IMG/VR virus record: IMGVR_UViG_3300044825_002439
Span: 1 to 32,874 of that record
Length of the DNA stretch: 32,874 bases
Origin: a virus
Strand: one strand, 5' to 3'
Position 1 is the stretch's first letter; every line of letters begins with the position of its first letter. Both the position numbers and the translations under genes were made by a program. The notes under the pieces are model-generated. The model made no database searches. It was not told where the DNA came from and saw nothing but the letters and a program-made list of their open reading frames with translations. Positions 15,398 to 28,108 of the stretch are shown in pieces.

Positions 15398-15627
15398 GGC
15401 TCAGGGCTCTCCTTGGGGGTGGCGCGCGACTCGTACCGGATGCGTGTCCAGATGTCAGCCAGTTGGGCCTCAATGCTGGTGGGTGCTCGCGTGCAGCTCG
15501 GCAGCAGGTGCCAGACCGTGCAATCGCCTAGGTACTGCTCGCGTTGCGTGCGGAACAGCCAATCGCGCCGGTCGACGGTAATGATCATGTCGCCGTCGCT
15601 CGCGTTCTCGTGCGAAACGTATCTCAT
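15394..15627 (-). CDS. Small unknown early protein
   Basis: Product of 77 residues starting MRYVSHENASDGDMIITVDR. I place the start at 15627, where a purine-rich ribosome site (GAGGAGAGAGGG) precedes ATG. A longer in-frame opening upstream runs through the neighbouring gene and has poor composition. This start and its ribosome site lie in a 43-bp sequence that is repeated exactly before the YspA-like gene. No known domain. Confidence 0.7.
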   Translation of the reverse strand: MRYVSHENASDGDMIITVDRRDWLFRTQREQYLGDCTVWHLLPSCTRAPTSIEAQLADIWTRIRYESRATPKESPEP

Positions 15628-15665
15628 CCCTCTCTCCTCTCGCGTCCGCGCGTCATGGCGCGGGG
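15623..15665 (-). repeat. 43-bp perfect direct repeat, copy 1 (gene end / RBS / gene start)
   Basis: Identical to 17012-17054. Here it spans the last codons and stop of the gene at 15653-15922 (CCC GCG CCA TGA), the ribosome site and the ATG of the next gene. Confidence 0.95.
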
Positions 15666-15922
15666 CTCGGAAATGCCGCTTCGTATTCGCGGAGGGCGGC
15701 AATCGCGCTGTCGATGGCGTTCTCCGGCCCAAGATGCGACCAGCCGCGATACTCGCCGGAGTCGTCCACGCCATAGATGCCATGCAGACCCCACCCGGGT
15801 CCGATGGAGCCGTCCGGCTGGCGCACGCGGTCATGCTTGCGCAGTACGCCGCGATCAATGAGCATCGCCAGTAGGAAGCGGTAACGCTCGCTCTCCGTGC
15901 AAACAGGTGGCAGGCCGCTCAT
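15653..15922 (-). CDS. Unknown early protein (ERYRFL family-like)
   Basis: Product of 89 residues starting MSGLPPVCTESERYRFLLAM at the ATG that overlaps the methyltransferase stop. The ESERYRFL start and the NAIDSAIAALREYEAA end resemble a loose family of small phage proteins with a D/E-xRYRxL opening and a DxAI helix, seen again in the gene at 23839-24150. Function unknown. Confidence 0.7.
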   Translation of the reverse strand: MSGLPPVCTESERYRFLLAMLIDRGVLRKHDRVRQPDGSIGPGWGLHGIYGVDDSGEYRGWSHLGPENAIDSAIAALREYEAAFPSPAP

Positions 15923-16488
15923 GGGGCGGCGCTCACGGTCACGTCTGACTCGACCTCGTTGCCCCACGCGTGCCAACGCGCGCGACGACGACGCGCGAAC
16001 ATTTCGAGATACGGGCCGGGGCTTACGTGCTCGACGACGGAATAGAACTCGTCCGGCTTGGCGGAGTGTCGCGGCTTGCCGCGCTCGTCGTAGGGTCGCT
16101 TCCAGTTAAACCATGTCCCGCCGATCTTGTTCGTGTGCGGGAGCTTCCCGCGCCGGCAGAACAAGCAGAACTCCGTGTTGATGCCGTAGGCGCCGCCCAG
16201 TCCACCGCCCATGAGCGCCTTGGCCCACACAAGCGTGGTGCTGTACTCGAAGCCCCACGCGCGCGCCACGTCGAAGGCATCGCGCAGATACCCGTTCGTC
16301 GTCCAAAGGTAGAGGTGCGCTGCGGGCGCGGCCGGCACCTGCAGCGCGGCGATCTCGGCAACTGTCATCGTTGGATACGGCAGCGGTCGGGATGCGCCGG
16401 TCGCATCGCCAAAGCCTTCGCGTCCGACCAACGGCCCTGCCGTCGTTTGCCAGGGCGGGTCTGCGACGATGGTTGCGTAGTCGCTCAA
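15919..16488 (-). CDS. MT-A70-family adenine methyltransferase
   Basis: Product of 189 residues using a TTG start that overlaps the preceding TGA. The catalytic motif DPPW is at residues 10-13, close to the N-terminus as usual for phage MT-A70 enzymes. The SAM-binding and C-terminal blocks AHLYLWTTNGYLRDAFDVARAWGF, KPDEFYSVVEHVSPGPYLEMFARR and WHAWGNEV are complete. The likely reaction is N6-methylation of adenine in phage DNA, protecting it from host restriction or marking it for regulation. No cognate restriction enzyme is nearby, so it is an orphan enzyme. RNA as substrate cannot be excluded from sequence alone. Confidence 0.92.
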   Translation of the reverse strand: MSDYATIVADPPWQTTAGPLVGREGFGDATGASRPLPYPTMTVAEIAALQVPAAPAAHLYLWTTNGYLRDAFDVARAWGFEYSTTLVWAKALMGGGLGGAYGINTEFCLFCRRGKLPHTNKIGGTWFNWKRPYDERGKPRHSAKPDEFYSVVEHVSPGPYLEMFARRRRARWHAWGNEVESDVTVSAAP

Positions 16489-16604: not shown

Positions 16605-16642
16605 GTCGCCCCCATCTCGTCGGCGGTGAGGAAGGCGCTCAT
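16601..16642 (-). pseudogene. N-terminal remnant of a DUF4326 gene (13 codons)
   Basis: ATG to TGA encodes MSAFLTADEMGAT. The first 11 residues and the underlying DNA are identical to the start of the DUF4326 gene at 19604-20002. After the repeat ends the frame closes within two codons. It is either a scar left by replacement of a former second DUF4326 gene or a tiny leader peptide. Confidence 0.6.
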
Positions 16643-16650
16643 GGGGTGGC
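16609..16650 (-). repeat. 42-bp perfect direct repeat, copy 1
   Basis: Identical to 19969-20010, exactly 3360 bp apart. It covers the end of the upstream gene, the start codon and the first 11 codons of the DUF4326-type frame. Confidence 0.95.
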
Positions 16651-17016
16651 GCTCATGAGGTCAATGACCGGGACGCCAGTGACGAGCGCGGCACCAACCA
16701 TGTGCGATGTCCCTTTGCCGCCGGGGAAAGCAATCACCAAGTCCGGCATGCCGTGGCGCAACATTTCCAGGTTCCGGATCGGCCCGGCACGCTTGCCGTG
16801 CTTCTGCCAGTCGGCGTGAAACTCGTCGGTATGTACGCGGCGATCCTTTGCCCACTCCCATGCCAGCATGTCAGCGCCGCGCGCCATGCCCGTGATGATC
16901 GCCTTGATGGCCGAGTTCTTGTCGTGGCTGTCGAGCACGGCGTAGAGCCAATCCTTGTCGCGGTCGCCGGGCTTGTATTCCGGCATCACCAGCAAGCAGG
17001 CGATCCGTAGGCTCAT
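16639..17016 (-). CDS. YspA/DUF2493-type SLOG-fold protein
   Basis: Product of 125 residues. The segment ITGMARGADMLAWEWAKDRR, then the acidic/aromatic HADWQKHGKRAGPIRNLEML and DLVIAFPGGKGT are the diagnostic blocks of the YspA-related SLOG family (DUF2493). Such proteins are predicted to bind nucleotides or nucleotide-derived signals and are common in phages, with no settled function. The usual G-x-R-x-F opening is changed here to LLVMPEYKPGDRDKDW. The start ATG lies in a 43-bp repeat with a strong purine-rich ribosome site. Confidence 0.85.
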   Translation of the reverse strand: MSLRIACLLVMPEYKPGDRDKDWLYAVLDSHDKNSAIKAIITGMARGADMLAWEWAKDRRVHTDEFHADWQKHGKRAGPIRNLEMLRHGMPDLVIAFPGGKGTSHMVGAALVTGVPVIDLMSATP

Positions 17017-17054
17017 CCCTCTCTCCTCTCGCGTCCGCGCGTCATGGCGCGGGG
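17012..17054 (-). repeat. 43-bp perfect direct repeat, copy 2
   Basis: Identical to 15623-15665. Here the gene-end part (CCC GCG CCA TGA) is no longer attached to a gene: it lies after the stop of the gene at 17059-17394, so it is a vestigial gene end. Confidence 0.95.
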
Positions 17055-19607: not shown

Positions 19608-20002
19608 GAGTTCGCGATCTCCAGCAGCACGTCGGCGTGGCACGGCTCGCCCGGCTTGCACCAGCAGGCGAGGTTCTTGCCGCGAAGGTCGGCCTTGATC
19701 CATGCCCGCCGTTCGATGCCGCCCACGCGCGATTGCAGGCGCATGGTGTCGCGGTAGACGCGCTCGGCCAAGGCGTTCGGCATGTGCGCCACCCACGCGG
19801 GCGACCAGCCTGTGCCGAGAATCGCGTTGCGGTAGAGCCCGACCGCCTGCTCGCGCCCAAAGGTGGCGACGTCAAACGGATTCCCGAATCGAGTGGGCCG
19901 CGCCACGCTCACGGTATTGGCGGGCAACCGCCAACCCTTCGCGCGCGAAAGCTGCACCCGGATCGGCACCCCCATCTCGTCGGCGGTGAGGAAGGCGCTC
20001 AT
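19604..20002 (-). CDS. DUF4326 family protein
   Basis: Product of 132 residues from ATG 20002. The defining blocks are PANTVSVARPTRFGNPF and LRGKNLACWCKPGEPCHADVLL, the latter with a CWC-x4-CHAD cysteine/histidine cluster. The family is common in phages and mobile elements; its biochemical role is not established. The first 11 codons lie in a 42-bp repeat found again at 16609-16650. The stop overlaps the next GTG. Confidence 0.88.
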   Translation of the reverse strand: MSAFLTADEMGVPIRVQLSRAKGWRLPANTVSVARPTRFGNPFDVATFGREQAVGLYRNAILGTGWSPAWVAHMPNALAERVYRDTMRLQSRVGGIERRAWIKADLRGKNLACWCKPGEPCHADVLLEIANS

Positions 20003-20010
20003 GGGGTGGC
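19969..20010 (-). repeat. 42-bp perfect direct repeat, copy 2
   Basis: Identical to 16609-16650; contains the start of the intact DUF4326 gene. Confidence 0.95.
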
Positions 20011-23615: not shown

Positions 23616-23839
23616 GGGCGCTCCCCGATAGCGGCGACTACGTACTCGGCTCCACGACACACGTGCGTCATCGCGGCGCGTTGCTCGTCGGTAATCGAGG
23701 AATGGCGCTCGCGGCGCATCAGAATCCCGAACGCATCAATGCGCTCTGGCGGCGGCCAACTCAATCCGAGCGCCGCACACGGTTGCCGCACCGTGCCGTG
23801 GTCGAAGCGCAGCACCACGAAGTCATCGTCGTATGTCAT
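23612..23839 (-). CDS. Small unknown early protein
   Basis: Product of 75 residues starting MTYDDDFVVLRFDHGTVRQP. The ATG shares one base with the upstream stop (TGATG); a GTG one codon earlier is an alternative start. C-terminal part HSSITDEQRAAMTHVCRGAE is helical. No motif recognised. Confidence 0.7.
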   Translation of the reverse strand: MTYDDDFVVLRFDHGTVRQPCAALGLSWPPPERIDAFGILMRRERHSSITDEQRAAMTHVCRGAEYVVAAIGERP

Positions 23840-24150
23840 CACTTCTCCCCGATAGCGGTGTGCGAAGCAATGGCAGCATCCACGGCCGCGTCAAGGTCGT
23901 TCAGCGCGCCACGCTCCATCAGCCACGTTGTGTCGAACACGTCGCGCGGGGACAGCAGCCCGTCACGAACGAACCGATACCTCTCCGCATCTCTCGCCCC
24001 TGCTTCGGCGGCGGCGATGAGCGTGCGAAGGTCGGCCGCCAACTCGCGGTCGCTGTCTGTGCCGGCGCTACTCATGCGGGCAAGCACCGCCAACGTCTTG
24101 CGTACACGTTCCACCGCCGCCTGCAGCTCGGCTCGCTCTACTGCGGTCAT
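23839..24150 (-). CDS. Unknown early protein (ERYRFV family-like)
   Basis: Product of 103 residues from ATG 24150, overlapping the DUF551 stop. A helical N-terminus (MTAVERAELQAAVERVRKTL) is followed by DAERYRFVRDGLLSPRDVFD and a final helix DLDAAVDAAIASHTAIGEK. The RYRF-VRD and DxAxDxAI pattern is common in phage genomes and recurs in the gene at 15653-15922. Function unknown. Confidence 0.75.
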   Translation of the reverse strand: MTAVERAELQAAVERVRKTLAVLARMSSAGTDSDRELAADLRTLIAAAEAGARDAERYRFVRDGLLSPRDVFDTTWLMERGALNDLDAAVDAAIASHTAIGEK

Positions 24151-24347
24151 GGGGCCTCCGGAAGTCGCATCCAGTGCGTAGGTTCGGCGTCGAACGTGTC
24201 CATGCCATCGTTCGCGCGCTGCCACTCGATGCCGTTGGGGCCGAAGAGCATGTGGCCGATGTCAAACGGAACGTGCTCGCCCCAGTACAGCAGAACATCT
24301 TCGTCCTCGGGCGGCATCTGCGACTCGACGCTGACCCAGTCGCTCAT
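24147..24347 (-). CDS. DUF551-like protein
   Basis: Product of 66 residues. SDWVSVESQMPPEDEDVLLY, then W, and the ending EPTHWMRLPEAP give the W-x-P-V-L-x(n)-THWMPLPxxP outline of DUF551 phage proteins. Their role is unknown. Both ends overlap neighbouring genes by 4 nt. Confidence 0.82.
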   Translation of the reverse strand: MSDWVSVESQMPPEDEDVLLYWGEHVPFDIGHMLFGPNGIEWQRANDGMDTFDAEPTHWMRLPEAP

Positions 24348-24589
24348 GCGGCGGCCTGCTTCTTCTTCAAGCGCGCGATCTGCTCTTCAAGGCGCTCGAT
24401 CTTCATCGTCAGCGGGTCTTGCTCGTCGTTCAGACGGATGATGTGCCGGTGCTGTTCCTCGATCTTCGCCTCAAGCTTCTCCACGTCGGCAAGCCATTTC
24501 CGGCGAGTGGCGTCGAGCGCGAGCCAGATCCGCTCCCTATCTTCGCGGAGCCAACGCTCCATGTGAGTCTCTTTGACCTCTTCGCTCAT
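24344..24589 (-). CDS. Coiled-coil early protein
   Basis: Product of 81 residues starting MSEEVKETHMERWLREDRER at ATG 24589, with AGGAG 6 nt upstream; an ATG two codons earlier has no usable spacing. Nearly the whole chain is a charged helix with heptad spacing (LADVEKLEAKIEEQHRHIIR, MKIERLEEQIARLKKKQ). It probably forms a dimer or binds another helical protein. The ribosome site overlaps the nicotinamidase stop. Confidence 0.75.
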   Translation of the reverse strand: MSEEVKETHMERWLREDRERIWLALDATRRKWLADVEKLEAKIEEQHRHIIRLNDEQDPLTMKIERLEEQIARLKKKQAAA

Positions 24590-24598
24590 CCCCATCTC

Positions 24599-24616
24599 CT
24601 ATTGAACAGACGGCAA
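24599..24616 (-). repeat. 18-bp perfect direct repeat, left border of the nicotinamidase/radical SAM pair
   Basis: CTATTGAACAGACGGCAA, identical to 26053-26070. Here it encodes the last residues LPSVQ and the stop of the nicotinamidase. Confidence 0.9.
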
Positions 24617-25096
24617 TACCGAGCGGCACAGATGTTCCAGCACCGTCACGCGGTAGCCGAGTTGTCGCGCCGCCTCCGCCGTGGCTTCTACGCAGAAGTC
24701 GCGCGCGAGCCCGCACACCTCTATCTCGGTCACGTGCCTCGACCGCAGATACCGGTGGAGATCGGGGTTGTCGAAGCCGGAGTATTCCTCGCGAGCGGCG
24801 TCGCGGCCCTTGTCGAAGCACGGCCAGCCGAGAAGTTGCGCCATCGCGTTAATGCCGGGTTGCAGCTCGAATCCGCGCGTTTCCTGAACGCAATGCGCTG
24901 GCCACGGACCGCCTTGCTCGGCAAAGCTCTTGTGGTCGGCCGGGTGCGCGTCGGCGGTGAAGGCGACCACCTCGCGGGCCTCTCCAGCCTCGCGCAGCCG
25001 ATCCTGAATCGGCCCCACAATCTCTTGCGCGCCCTTGACCGCGAGCGACCCTGTGATGAAGTCGTTCTGCATGTCCACCACGATCAGCGCCTTCAT
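24599..25096 (-). CDS. pncA: Nicotinamidase (PncA-type isochorismatase fold), C-terminally shortened
   Basis: Product of 165 residues. The catalytic triad is complete: Asp8 (VVDMQNDF), Lys96 (CFDKGRD) and Cys135 (ARDFCVEA). The metal ligands are Asp49, His51, His55 and His68 (FTADAHPADHKSF, WPAHCVQ), with numbering close to the mycobacterial enzyme. It turns nicotinamide into nicotinate, feeding NAD synthesis. The chain stops at LCRSVLPSVQ, about 20-25 residues before the family's usual end, and the stop lies in an 18-bp repeat that bounds the cassette. The start overlaps the radical SAM stop. A role in restoring NAD after NADase-type defence is possible but inferred. Confidence 0.9.
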   Translation of the reverse strand: MKALIVVDMQNDFITGSLAVKGAQEIVGPIQDRLREAGEAREVVAFTADAHPADHKSFAEQGGPWPAHCVQETRGFELQPGINAMAQLLGWPCFDKGRDAAREEYSGFDNPDLHRYLRSRHVTEIEVCGLARDFCVEATAEAARQLGYRVTVLEHLCRSVLPSVQ

Positions 25097-26040
25097 GACG
25101 CAAGCGCCACAATCGGCACATGGACCTTGGCCTTGCCGCGACCGATGCTGGGCTTCGCGTGCTCCGGATGCTCGCGCATCCACTCCTGCACGAACCACAG
25201 TTGCCCGCAGCCGCCGCCAATCGTGTCCTGTCCCGCGGGATCGAACATGCGCGTGTCGTAGCCGCGCTCGACCAGCTTAGACGCGAAGTCAGAGGCGAGG
25301 TTGCGCTGGTGCTCGTTGGTGGACGGCAGCCATTCCTGCTGCTCGCAGATCACGCTGACGGTGGCGCACCAGTACCGAGGATCGAACAGCGCCAGGATGC
25401 GGTCGGCGTCTTCCGGCGACGAATTGCGGTCGTGCGCGCAGTAGTTGAAGAACGGCTTGCGGCCCGTCGCGGCACGCCAGCGCAGACCTTGCTCCGCGAT
25501 CTCCTGCAGGTTCAGCTTCGCCTTGAACGGGATAAGGGCATCGCGGGCGGCGTCGGTCGATTCGTGGACCGAGAATTGCAGGCCAACCGTGGGCACCTCC
25601 ACGCTCACCTCGATGACCGATTGGTAGTCGACGCGCGGGCCACTGGTGCTGATGAGCAGCGCAGCCTTCGGATACAGCCGGTGCAGCTCGCGGATGGCCG
25701 GACCAAGCGCTCTCATGGTGAGCATCGGCTCGCCCATGCTCATGAACATGATCTGCAGCCGCCCCATCGTGGCCGGATCGACTCCGGTATCGTCGACGCA
25801 CCGCACCGCCTGCGCCACGATCTCGTCGGCCGCCAGACTGCGCACGAAGTAGTCGCCGCTGCCGCAGAACCGGCAACCGATCGGACACCCGGACTGCGTG
25901 GAGCAGCAAATCACCGTGCGCGTCTGGAAGTCGGGGTACTTGTACAACACCGACTCCACCACACAGCCCGGCTTCTCGAAGATGTACTTCGACACGTTCG
26001 ACTTCTCGTCAGCAATCACCCGAACAGAATCCCAGGTCAT
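25093..26040 (-). CDS. RlmN/Cfr-like radical SAM methyltransferase, compact form
   Basis: Product of 315 residues from ATG 26040 with GAGGGGG 6 nt upstream. The [4Fe-4S] motif is Cys52, Cys56, Cys59 (GCPIGCRFCGSG). The blocks MFMSMGEPML (about 98-107), LLISTSG, and FSVHESTDAARDALIPF follow RlmN. Cys278 in DTIGGGCGQLWF matches the cysteine that is methylated and attacks the adenine in RlmN/Cfr. The N-terminal RNA-recognition domain of about 90 residues is missing and a short basic C-terminal tail is added. Expected chemistry is C2 or C8 methylation of an adenine in rRNA, tRNA or another nucleic acid. The target here is unknown. Confidence 0.88.
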   Translation of the reverse strand: MTWDSVRVIADEKSNVSKYIFEKPGCVVESVLYKYPDFQTRTVICCSTQSGCPIGCRFCGSGDYFVRSLAADEIVAQAVRCVDDTGVDPATMGRLQIMFMSMGEPMLTMRALGPAIRELHRLYPKAALLISTSGPRVDYQSVIEVSVEVPTVGLQFSVHESTDAARDALIPFKAKLNLQEIAEQGLRWRAATGRKPFFNYCAHDRNSSPEDADRILALFDPRYWCATVSVICEQQEWLPSTNEHQRNLASDFASKLVERGYDTRMFDPAGQDTIGGGCGQLWFVQEWMREHPEHAKPSIGRGKAKVHVPIVALAS

Positions 26041-26152
26041 GATCAACCCCCTCTATTGAACAGACGGCAACAACCCCACTACCCACCTCACCAAAAGCTA
26101 CGAACAGAAGACCTCCTAACACCGCAGCAACGAAGAGCAAGAGTGGCTTCAT
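26009..26152 (-). CDS. 47-residue membrane peptide overlapping the radical SAM gene
   Basis: ATG 26152 overlaps the DUF1364 stop (ATGA). Sequence MKPLLLFVAAVLGGLLFVAF, a hydrophobic segment, then GEVGSGVVAVCSIEGVDHDL and a cysteine-containing end. The C-terminal third runs through the 18-bp repeat and 32 nt into the radical SAM gene. The original C-terminus was therefore probably replaced when the cassette arrived. It may be a small signal-peptide-like or membrane protein. Confidence 0.6.
   Translation of the reverse strand: MKPLLLFVAAVLGGLLFVAFGEVGSGVVAVCSIEGVDHDLGFCSGDC
26053..26070 (-). repeat. 18-bp perfect direct repeat, right border of the nicotinamidase/radical SAM pair
   Basis: Identical to 24599-24616. 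It lies just upstream of the radical SAM ribosome site, inside the 47-residue membrane peptide frame. In another frame it again reads LPSVQ-stop. Confidence 0.9.
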
Positions 26153-26442: not shown

Positions 26443-26666
26443 GCCGCGTCCCTGTACTTGATCGCCGCCTGCACGCGAGACTCCGCGCCGATGCGCTGGA
26501 ACAGGTCCGCCAGGTGCACCTTGACCGTCCCGACCGAGGCGCCCATGGCGCGCGCGATCTGCTTGTTCGTCATGCCGGTGGCGACCAGCGCCCACGCCTC
26601 GCGCTGGCGGCGGGTGATCGGCAGCGTGCGCGGGTCGCGCGGAGTGCGGGGGATGCGCGTGGTCAT
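26439..26666 (-). CDS. Free-standing LuxR/GerE-type HTH protein
   Basis: Product of 75 residues. Almost the entire protein is the GerE-type four-helix DNA-binding domain: ITRRQREAWALVATGMTNKQ, IARAMGASVGTVKVHLADLF and QRIGAESRVQAAIK. There is no receiver or autoinducer domain, so it would bind DNA constitutively or compete with host LuxR/NarL-type regulators. It is encoded between the exonuclease and DUF1364 genes and overlaps both. Confidence 0.88.
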   Translation of the reverse strand: MTTRIPRTPRDPRTLPITRRQREAWALVATGMTNKQIARAMGASVGTVKVHLADLFQRIGAESRVQAAIKYRDAA

Positions 26667-27271
26667 GCCGCGGCCGTCGTGAACTGCTCGAAGAGTGCGT
26701 CCACTTCGGCGAGGAAGGCCCGTGCCGCCGCTTCGATGTTGGCGATGGCCTCCTCGTCCCGCTCCAGGCGGCGGATGAACGTCTTGCCGCTCTCCGGGGA
26801 GTAGGCGCAGAAGTCCACCCACTGCCGGCCGGTGATGGCAAGCTGGGTATTGAGCTGCGGGAGATGGTCCTCGGGGATGACACCGCCGAGGGTCCAGGTA
26901 ACGAACGTCGCGATCTGCGGTACCTTGAACTCGGCCAGCCCATCGGGGCCGACGAAGGCGTCTGGCGTGCCGCCGAAGAAGTCGATGCGCGGATGGATGA
27001 TGAGGCGGGCGGGGCCGCAGAGGGTCCCGGTGGTGGCCTCGTATGCCTTCCGGGCGTTCGGCTCCTCGTCCAAGCCCCGTTGCATGGCCGGCGTGACGTA
27101 GTGGTCCACGGCGCGGCCGTAGGCGCGCTCCGCCACGAGCTCGATCTTGTACTTGCGGCGGGCCTCGGATTCCTTGCCGCTCTTGAGGTAGTCGAGGGCG
27201 TCTTTCATCCTGCTTGCCGTGAGCAGGCCCTGGCGCTCGACCGTCCAGCCGGGAGAGGATTGGAGCGTCAT
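26663..27271 (-). CDS. YqaJ-type (lambda Exo-like) recombination exonuclease
   Basis: Product of 202 residues from ATG 27271. Catalytic PD-(D/E)XK residues: Asp104 in GTPDAFV, Glu114 and Lys116 in LAEFKVP. A supporting helix follows (LPQLNTQLAITGRQWVDFCAYSP). The enzyme degrades the 5' strand of double-stranded DNA ends and hands the 3' tail to an annealing protein. Its start overlaps the stop of the ERF annealase gene, the usual two-component phage recombination pair. Confidence 0.92.
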   Translation of the reverse strand: MTLQSSPGWTVERQGLLTASRMKDALDYLKSGKESEARRKYKIELVAERAYGRAVDHYVTPAMQRGLDEEPNARKAYEATTGTLCGPARLIIHPRIDFFGGTPDAFVGPDGLAEFKVPQIATFVTWTLGGVIPEDHLPQLNTQLAITGRQWVDFCAYSPESGKTFIRRLERDEEAIANIEAAARAFLAEVDALFEQFTTAAA

Positions 27272-27879
27272 GCCGGCACCTTCGTCGGCGTGCCGTCGGC
27301 CTTCGCTGCCGCTTCCTTGAGCGAATCCAGGTGGTCTGCAAGCTCGACGCGCAGAGACCTGCCGGCGCTCTTCCACGCCTCTTCGAGTGGCTTGGTGCCT
27401 TCGAGGGCTTTGGCCCGCAGGCTTTCCAGCACCGTCACGGCATCGGCCGACAGCGGCGGCGGGTCGGGCGTGATTCGACCCTCTTCGTTCTCCCCCGTCT
27501 CGAGCATGAGCAGCTTGAGAACGGCGTACTTGGTGGCGTAGGAGATCGCCTTGCCGGGGGCCTTGTCGCCGTAGTCGTCGGCGTGCGCGTCGAGCCGGAT
27601 GGTGATCTTGTCGGCCGGCTCGTCCATGTTGATGAAGTCCACCTCGAAGGTGCCTTCGTACCGCATGGCGGGATTGCCGCTCTTCGACTTGCGGCCGGTG
27701 TCGAGCATCACGCCGGAGACGACGCGAGGCGAGATGACGATGCCCGCCTCTACGAAATGCGGGCGCACCACGGCGGTGACCATGTCGTGGGTCACGGCCA
27801 TGTAGTTCTCGACCTGCTTGTCCTTCCGGACGTAAGCCACGGCCTGCATGACCTTGTGAACGCGCTGGTAGATGTTCAT
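27268..27879 (-). CDS. erf: ERF-family single-strand annealing protein
   Basis: Product of 203 residues from ATG 27879, where GGAGG gives a strong ribosome site. A GTG at 27936 would add 19 residues but has no such site. MNIYQRVHKVMQAVAYVRKD and the block GKAISYATKYAVLKLLMLET are typical of ERF proteins (P22 Erf type). They form rings on single-stranded DNA and promote annealing during phage recombination and genome circularisation. It works with the exonuclease encoded directly downstream. Confidence 0.9.
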   Translation of the reverse strand: MNIYQRVHKVMQAVAYVRKDKQVENYMAVTHDMVTAVVRPHFVEAGIVISPRVVSGVMLDTGRKSKSGNPAMRYEGTFEVDFINMDEPADKITIRLDAHADDYGDKAPGKAISYATKYAVLKLLMLETGENEEGRITPDPPPLSADAVTVLESLRAKALEGTKPLEEAWKSAGRSLRVELADHLDSLKEAAAKADGTPTKVPA

Positions 27880-27928
27880 GCCTTCCTCCAATTCGTCGGC
27901 CGCGTCGGTGAGGCGGCCGTGTTCGTGA

Positions 27929-28108
27929 CTAGCCACGCAGCGCCGCCTCTCGGGCTTCTGCGGCGCGGTCTCGGTATAGCTGGCCCACCGACCTCGAAGC
28001 CGTGTTCGGGTGCCGTCCGTGGGCGATCTGCGTGCGCTTGTCGATGGCCTTGTAGAGCTTGCGCAAGGAGGCAGCGCACATCGCTTCGATGGTGGGCGAG
28101 AGGGTCAC
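27929..28108 (-). CDS. Small unknown early protein
   Basis: Product of 59 residues, GTG start overlapping the previous TGA (GTGA). Sequence MTLSPTIEAMCAASLRKLYK, basic helix, then RTQIAHGRHPNTASRSVGQLYRDRAAEAREAALRG. The basic character may suit nucleic acid binding. No family. Confidence 0.65.
   Translation of the reverse strand: MTLSPTIEAMCAASLRKLYKAIDKRTQIAHGRHPNTASRSVGQLYRDRAAEAREAALRG

Follow-up and report, generated by a model that had tools for sequence, protein, structure and literature searches.

Two adjacent genes of a phage, one for a nicotinamidase and one for an RlmN-like radical SAM protein, lie between two copies of an 18-bp sequence. How did the pair join the genome, and what would it do for the phage? 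RlmN is a dual-specificity C2-methyltransferase of 23S A2503 and tRNA A37, and phage NAD+ salvage is known to counter NAD-depleting immunity. An earlier note on this DNA described the pair as a recently acquired unit that joins NAD salvage to nucleic acid methylation and is bounded by a direct repeat unlikely to be due to chance. We followed up these claims in the window, an IMG/VR viral record of 32,874 bp.

The plus strand of the record carries tail and lysis genes. The minus strand encodes a large serine integrase, a RecE-like exonuclease and an Erf-like annealing protein (26663..27936, PHROG 149 and 155), HNH nucleases, and methyltransferases. With integrase, recombination, tail, and lysis genes together, the record reads as a temperate phage. 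Phage DNA collections held no near relative of it, and relatives sought via the exonuclease and the tail protein were distant ones only, plus one near-identical 7-kb fragment. That contig (L168, IMGVR_UViG_3300047557_002896) comes from another sample, encodes tail-gene proteins 99-100% identical to those of the phage, and ends short of the two-gene unit. For the first 25 kb, the sole near DNA match in the phage collection is a 77-bp segment (19614-19690) that shares 82% identity with DUF4326 genes from Bobi, Brusacoram, and other Mycobacterium phages.

The 18-bp word TTGCCGTCTGTTCAATAG (minus strand) occurs in exact copies at 24599-24616 and 26053-26070, so the same 18 bp does indeed flank the nicotinamidase/RlmN-like pair at both borders. 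No further copy with up to 3 mismatches was found across the 32,874-bp record. Reading along the minus strand, the order is a 47-aa ORF, the right 18-mer, a ribosome-binding site, the RlmN-like gene (25093-26040), the nicotinamidase gene (24599-25096), the left 18-mer, a ribosome-binding site, and g38; the two genes of the pair overlap by ATGA. Both copies of the repeat are gene leaders directly 5′ of a Shine-Dalgarno site, a feature that had been overlooked, and they are in register with the start codons, 12 and 9 nt upstream. The left, downstream copy is the leader of g38 (24344..24589, minus strand), which encodes an 81-aa coiled-coil-like protein with a weak SlyX-like match. The last three bases of this copy are the TAG of the nicotinamidase, which bears out the claim that the repeat provides the stop codon. 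The right, upstream copy is the leader of the RlmN-like gene and lies, as had been described, within the tail of the 47-aa ORF (MKPLLLFVAAVLGGLLFVAF..., 26009..26152, minus strand, read from the sequence), which overlaps the RlmN-like start. This ORF had no match in family searches and is possibly a membrane peptide; in a conceptual empty site, it would extend further beyond the joint. The nicotinamidase and g38 share a reading frame (24344-25096), and all that separates them is a few codons plus the TAG that the repeat supplies. We also considered the 18-mer as a promoter; by eye, neither copy has a -10 hexamer at the correct spacing.

Could such a repeat arise by chance? Among the exact direct repeats of the record, it ranks third in length at 18 bp, behind repeats of 43 bp and 42 bp. 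A repeat of at least 18 bp was present in 5 of 100 Markov-1 sequences, so length alone is borderline, at most moderately unusual; for this AT-rich 18-mer itself, the Markov expectation is 1e-7 copies per strand. Position is more telling. Six pairs of leaders in this phage share at least 12 bp in register, against none in each of 7 control offsets, and the position of the leader repeats is not due to chance. The claim that chance is unlikely thus stands by virtue of position, in register upstream of starts, rather than length. The main pairs are g19/g22 (43 bp), g38/g40 (18 bp), g34/g35 (14 bp), and g17/g18 (12 bp). At both g19 and g22, the 43-bp exact repeat (15623-15665 and 17012-17054, minus strand) makes up the leader together with the start codon, and it bounds g22, a type II/MT-A70-like methyltransferase gene, and g20. 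The 14-bp repeat, found by repeat and leader comparison, bounds g35 (23621..23858, minus strand). With several pair-specific leader repeats in the phage, the 18-bp repeat is less special than the earlier note supposed.

The 42-bp exact repeat (16609-16650 and 19969-20010) is of another kind. Here the opening codons of g27 (MSAFLTADEMG) recur as a copy before the type II/MT-A70-like methyltransferase gene at 15919-16488, in a frame that reaches a stop after 12 codons. We therefore ruled it out as a leader pair: it is a copy of a gene start followed by a stop.

What are the leader repeats? Cluster K mycobacteriophages carry start-associated sequences, short repeats directly upstream of gene starts (PMC3203893). 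By analogy, the repeats of this phage could be regulatory or translation-initiation elements copied for co-regulation, an explanation that is silent on cassette insertion. Such elements are known in phages (PMC3203893), and every pair lies in register just 5′ of a ribosome-binding site, as one would expect. However, every leader pair has its own sequence, with no motif common to all pairs, and the 18-mer has two copies even at 3 mismatches, whereas start-associated sequences have many. Nor would co-regulation explain why the nicotinamidase is truncated at the repeat. We consider this explanation rather unlikely. The repeats form no single shared intergenic family, at least not clearly, and their differences from pair to pair argue that leaders were duplicated time and again as units of one to three genes joined the genome, rather than that the leaders have a regulatory motif in common. 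At least two other units are bounded by a leader repeat of their own (43 and 14 bp, with 12 bp in a fourth), which points to a general mode of insertion. The 18-bp repeat looks like a scar of this leader-duplicating mode rather than a mark of this particular cargo. Pair-specific leader repeats would then let one read how mosaic phage genomes take up small gene cargo.

In the reading we prefer, leader duplication, the 18-bp repeat would be the leader of the downstream gene, duplicated as the unit was joined in, and the joint would have swapped the C terminus of the nicotinamidase for the TAG of that leader. Because other units in the phage bear similar marks with other sequences, leader-to-leader recombination is the likely route, perhaps via the phage's own exonuclease and annealing protein, which are possible agents of short-homology recombination. 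An exact search for the 18-mer in 2.9 million viral contigs gave no match, and at up to 3 mismatches, 1.6 Mb of collected loci gave one unrelated match. An empty site with a single 18-mer was not found, and among the relatives found, none spans the site, so the insertion itself is something we infer. Within this phage type, we likewise found no relative that carries both genes. The G+C content (64-65%) and third-position G+C of the pair agree with those of the neighboring genes. With this composition, and no relative with an empty site found, the proposal that the unit was acquired recently is not supported.

The nicotinamidase (24599..25096, minus strand) is a PncA-like protein of 165 aa with an isochorismatase fold (PF00857, 5e-28). 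Its best PDB match is the Pyrococcus pyrazinamidase/nicotinamidase 1ilw (8e-30). Against the NCBIfam model PRK11609.1, it scores 103.4 bits, under the cut-off of 174, as do other phage and mobile nicotinamidases. Its C terminus is the shortest of 66 sequences: beyond the last aligned position, it has no residues, while all 65 relatives have at least 15. The truncation that had been put at 20 to 25 residues is thus real. Is this protein dead? One could argue that the nicotinamidase was broken on arrival and that selection acts on the RlmN-like gene alone, since the missing C-terminal segment is kept by all 65 relatives and solved nicotinamidase structures too run on beyond the last aligned residue. 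Against this, the frame is open and all invariant residues, namely, the catalytic Asp-Lys-Cys and the metal-binding Asp/His (D8, D49, H51, H68, K96, and C135), are retained, and the AF2 model is confident over the remaining fold (pLDDT 96). A decaying enzyme seems improbable to us.

The RlmN-like protein (25093..26040, minus strand) has 315 aa. In a full-length alignment of 61 rows, the CxxxCxxC motif (C52-x3-C56-x2-C59) is invariant, and so are C45 and C278, the equivalents of C118 and C355 of Escherichia coli RlmN; C355 was assigned by its motif (CGQL). The AF2 model (pLDDT 90.9) superposes on E. coli RlmN beginning with residue 78 of the latter (Z score of 29 over 276 residues, rmsd of 2.7); the N-terminal accessory RNA-binding domain is missing. 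Family members are about 293-339 aa long. The protein scores 89.5 bits against the TIGR00048 equivalog, whose cut-off is 290 bits. Nearly all of 28 host genomes searched have a separate RlmN, which scores 75-128 bits, while members of the RlmN-like family score 296-551. This protein is therefore a member of a distinct phage and mobile radical SAM family and not a host RlmN. The family is frequent in phages and rare in cellular genomes. We ruled out that it is a normal gene of Actinobacteria, as it was found in 1 of 396 Actinomycetota genomes and that one is the centre genome. The closest relatives are in genomes of Burkholderiales (Cupriavidus, 83% identity; Paraburkholderia, 78%).

About a fifth of the loci have tRNA genes near the RlmN-like gene. 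In the Stenotrophomonas phages ANB28 and BUCTxx99 (L201 and L205; 5992-6951), it is found inside a tRNA array, and in BUCTxx99, it is annotated as a "prohibitin family protein." In two other loci, an HNH endonuclease gene lies directly 3′ of the RlmN-like gene (L170, 5941-6585; L140, 4977-5552); the two endonucleases are 57% identical, and that of L170 carries a duplicate of the C-terminal tail of the RlmN-like protein. From the sequence, it is as if a homing endonuclease might target the 3′ end of the RlmN-like gene.

We then considered the neighbors of the family. Among 83 distinct RlmN-like clusters, the top recurrent neighbor families are NUDIX, NAMPT, and isochorismatase/nicotinamidase, with names confirmed by Pfam and NCBIfam; several neighbors at first called NAMPT turned out to be NAPRT in the family search. 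The NAD-salvage neighbors as a whole comprise NAMPT/NAPRT, NUDIX/NrtR, nicotinamidase, NMNAT, and NadE. NAMPT-type genes are present in 21 of 50 viral records with an RlmN-like gene. In 10 records, NAMPT is within 5 kb, versus an expectation of 2.2 if positions were random (0 of 20,000 simulations). Each of these 10 genes is upstream of the RlmN-like gene on the same strand. For records of at least 130 kb, NAMPT was found in 15 of 20, compared to 4 of 26 controls selected by ribonucleotide reductase (Fisher p = 7e-5); these controls are mostly T4-like phages, and none has the RlmN-like family. The NAD adjacency is spread patchily over the family tree: the 16 rows that show it need 15 changes, at least 10 of them forced by well-supported branches, which means that it formed or was lost many times.

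Several of these loci are independent operons that include PncA. Ornithinimicrobium has the order NAPRT-PncA-RlmN-like-NrtR (L184), and in Saccharibacteria, NUDIX-NAPRT-PncA adjoins the RlmN-like gene (L179). A 359-kb phage has NUDIX-NadE-RlmN-like-NMNAT-PncA (L107), and another phage has NAPRT-NUDIX-NMNAT-RlmN-like-NadA-PncA (L115). Vibrio phages have three consecutive genes, one PRPP-synthetase-like (ribose-phosphate diphosphokinase-like), one NAMPT-like, and the radical SAM gene; the first two could represent NARP1 (Adps/Namat) and not Prs/Nampt (PMC12774641).

The pairing of an RlmN-like gene with a nicotinamidase thus recurs in other genomes, and within this phage type, no second case was found. 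NAPRT/NAMPT, NUDIX, and tRNA genes were not found in the 32,874-bp record, which is possibly incomplete, and a PF04095 (NAMPT) profile search of it gave no match. NAD genes are absent from the vicinity of the two closest RlmN-like relatives and of most members found in temperate phages. A general linkage of phage nicotinamidases with RlmN-like genes was not found in 50 records, which gave 3 weak matches. For these reasons, the link to NAD rests on the family, and the gene pair of this phage is one instance of a family-level association. Of the earlier statement that the unit joins NAD salvage and nucleic acid methylation, the link itself holds for the family; nucleic acid methylation is suggested by the fold. 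A literature search, which was not exhaustive, found no paper that connects NAD salvage in phages to radical SAM or RlmN-like genes, and the recurrent association is apparently undescribed. This recurring pairing is a better finding than the repeat.

What might the two enzymes do together? Our main reading, to which we give a probability of about 0.45, is that the unit serves a temperate phage as an accessory module for NAD salvage, that it includes a class-A radical SAM partner, and that it was joined in via leader duplication. Going by family chemistry, the nicotinamidase would deamidate the nicotinamide released by NAD+-cleaving enzymes to nicotinate, and host NAPRT, NMNAT, and NadE would return nicotinate to NAD+. 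The partner, from a distinct mobile-element family, would be a radical SAM methyltransferase of class A (RlmN/Cfr type), most likely methylating C2 of adenosine in RNA. The first candidate substrate would be tRNA near the anticodon, because RlmN is a known methyltransferase of tRNA A37 and 23S A2503 (PMC5130265) and because some phages carry the gene among or close to tRNA genes. Both genes may travel together because they would help the phage survive host responses that are set off by infection, consume NAD+, and target translation, and the pair would keep NAD+ and translation running in infection. A search of a defence library with both genes of the pair gave no match. For the family at large, we suggest, tentatively and as a possibility on the unlikely side, that it acts in NAD+-restoring counter-defence operons, possibly methylating the adenine of NAD+ or a defence-targeted tRNA. 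If true, NAD salvage and adenine methylation would be connected in a way so far unrecognised. A methyltransferase family that recurs in NAD+ salvage operons would be a candidate for a missing component, and its substrate may be either RNA or a small molecule of the NAD type.

The more novel of these substrates would be the small molecule. The RlmN-like enzyme could act on the adenine of NAD+ or ADP-ribose, making, for example, a C2- or C8-methylated NAD that is poorly handled by host NADases. The loss of the N-terminal RNA-binding domain, a tight conserved core specific to the family, and the operon linkage with NAD synthesis are all in line with this idea. However, it is without precedent, RNA is the substrate of the known class-A radical SAM methylases, and the tRNA-array context in some phages fits it poorly. 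We regard it as very unlikely.

How does this module compare with known systems? Like start-associated sequences, the repeats of this phage are short and immediately 5′ of gene starts; unlike them, each is specific to one gene pair, while the start-associated sequences are one motif in many copies. The nicotinamidase shares with PncA the isochorismatase fold and every invariant residue, and differs in lacking the C-terminal segment found in every relative and in scoring below the PRK11609.1 cut-off. The RlmN-like protein has the fold, the CxxxCxxC cluster motif, and the equivalents of Cys118 and Cys355 in common with RlmN/Cfr, but it has no N-terminal domain, is 20-27% identical to them, coexists with a host RlmN, and is rare and mobile. 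As in the phage pathways of NAD+ reconstitution (NARP1 Adps/Namat; Nampt/NMNAT), NAD+ would be rebuilt from nicotinamide, and several RlmN-like genes adjoin PRPP-synthetase-like and NAMPT-like genes (PMC12774641). Unlike those pathways, this record has no NAMPT-like gene and encodes the deamidase step alone, so that host enzymes would be needed for the rest.
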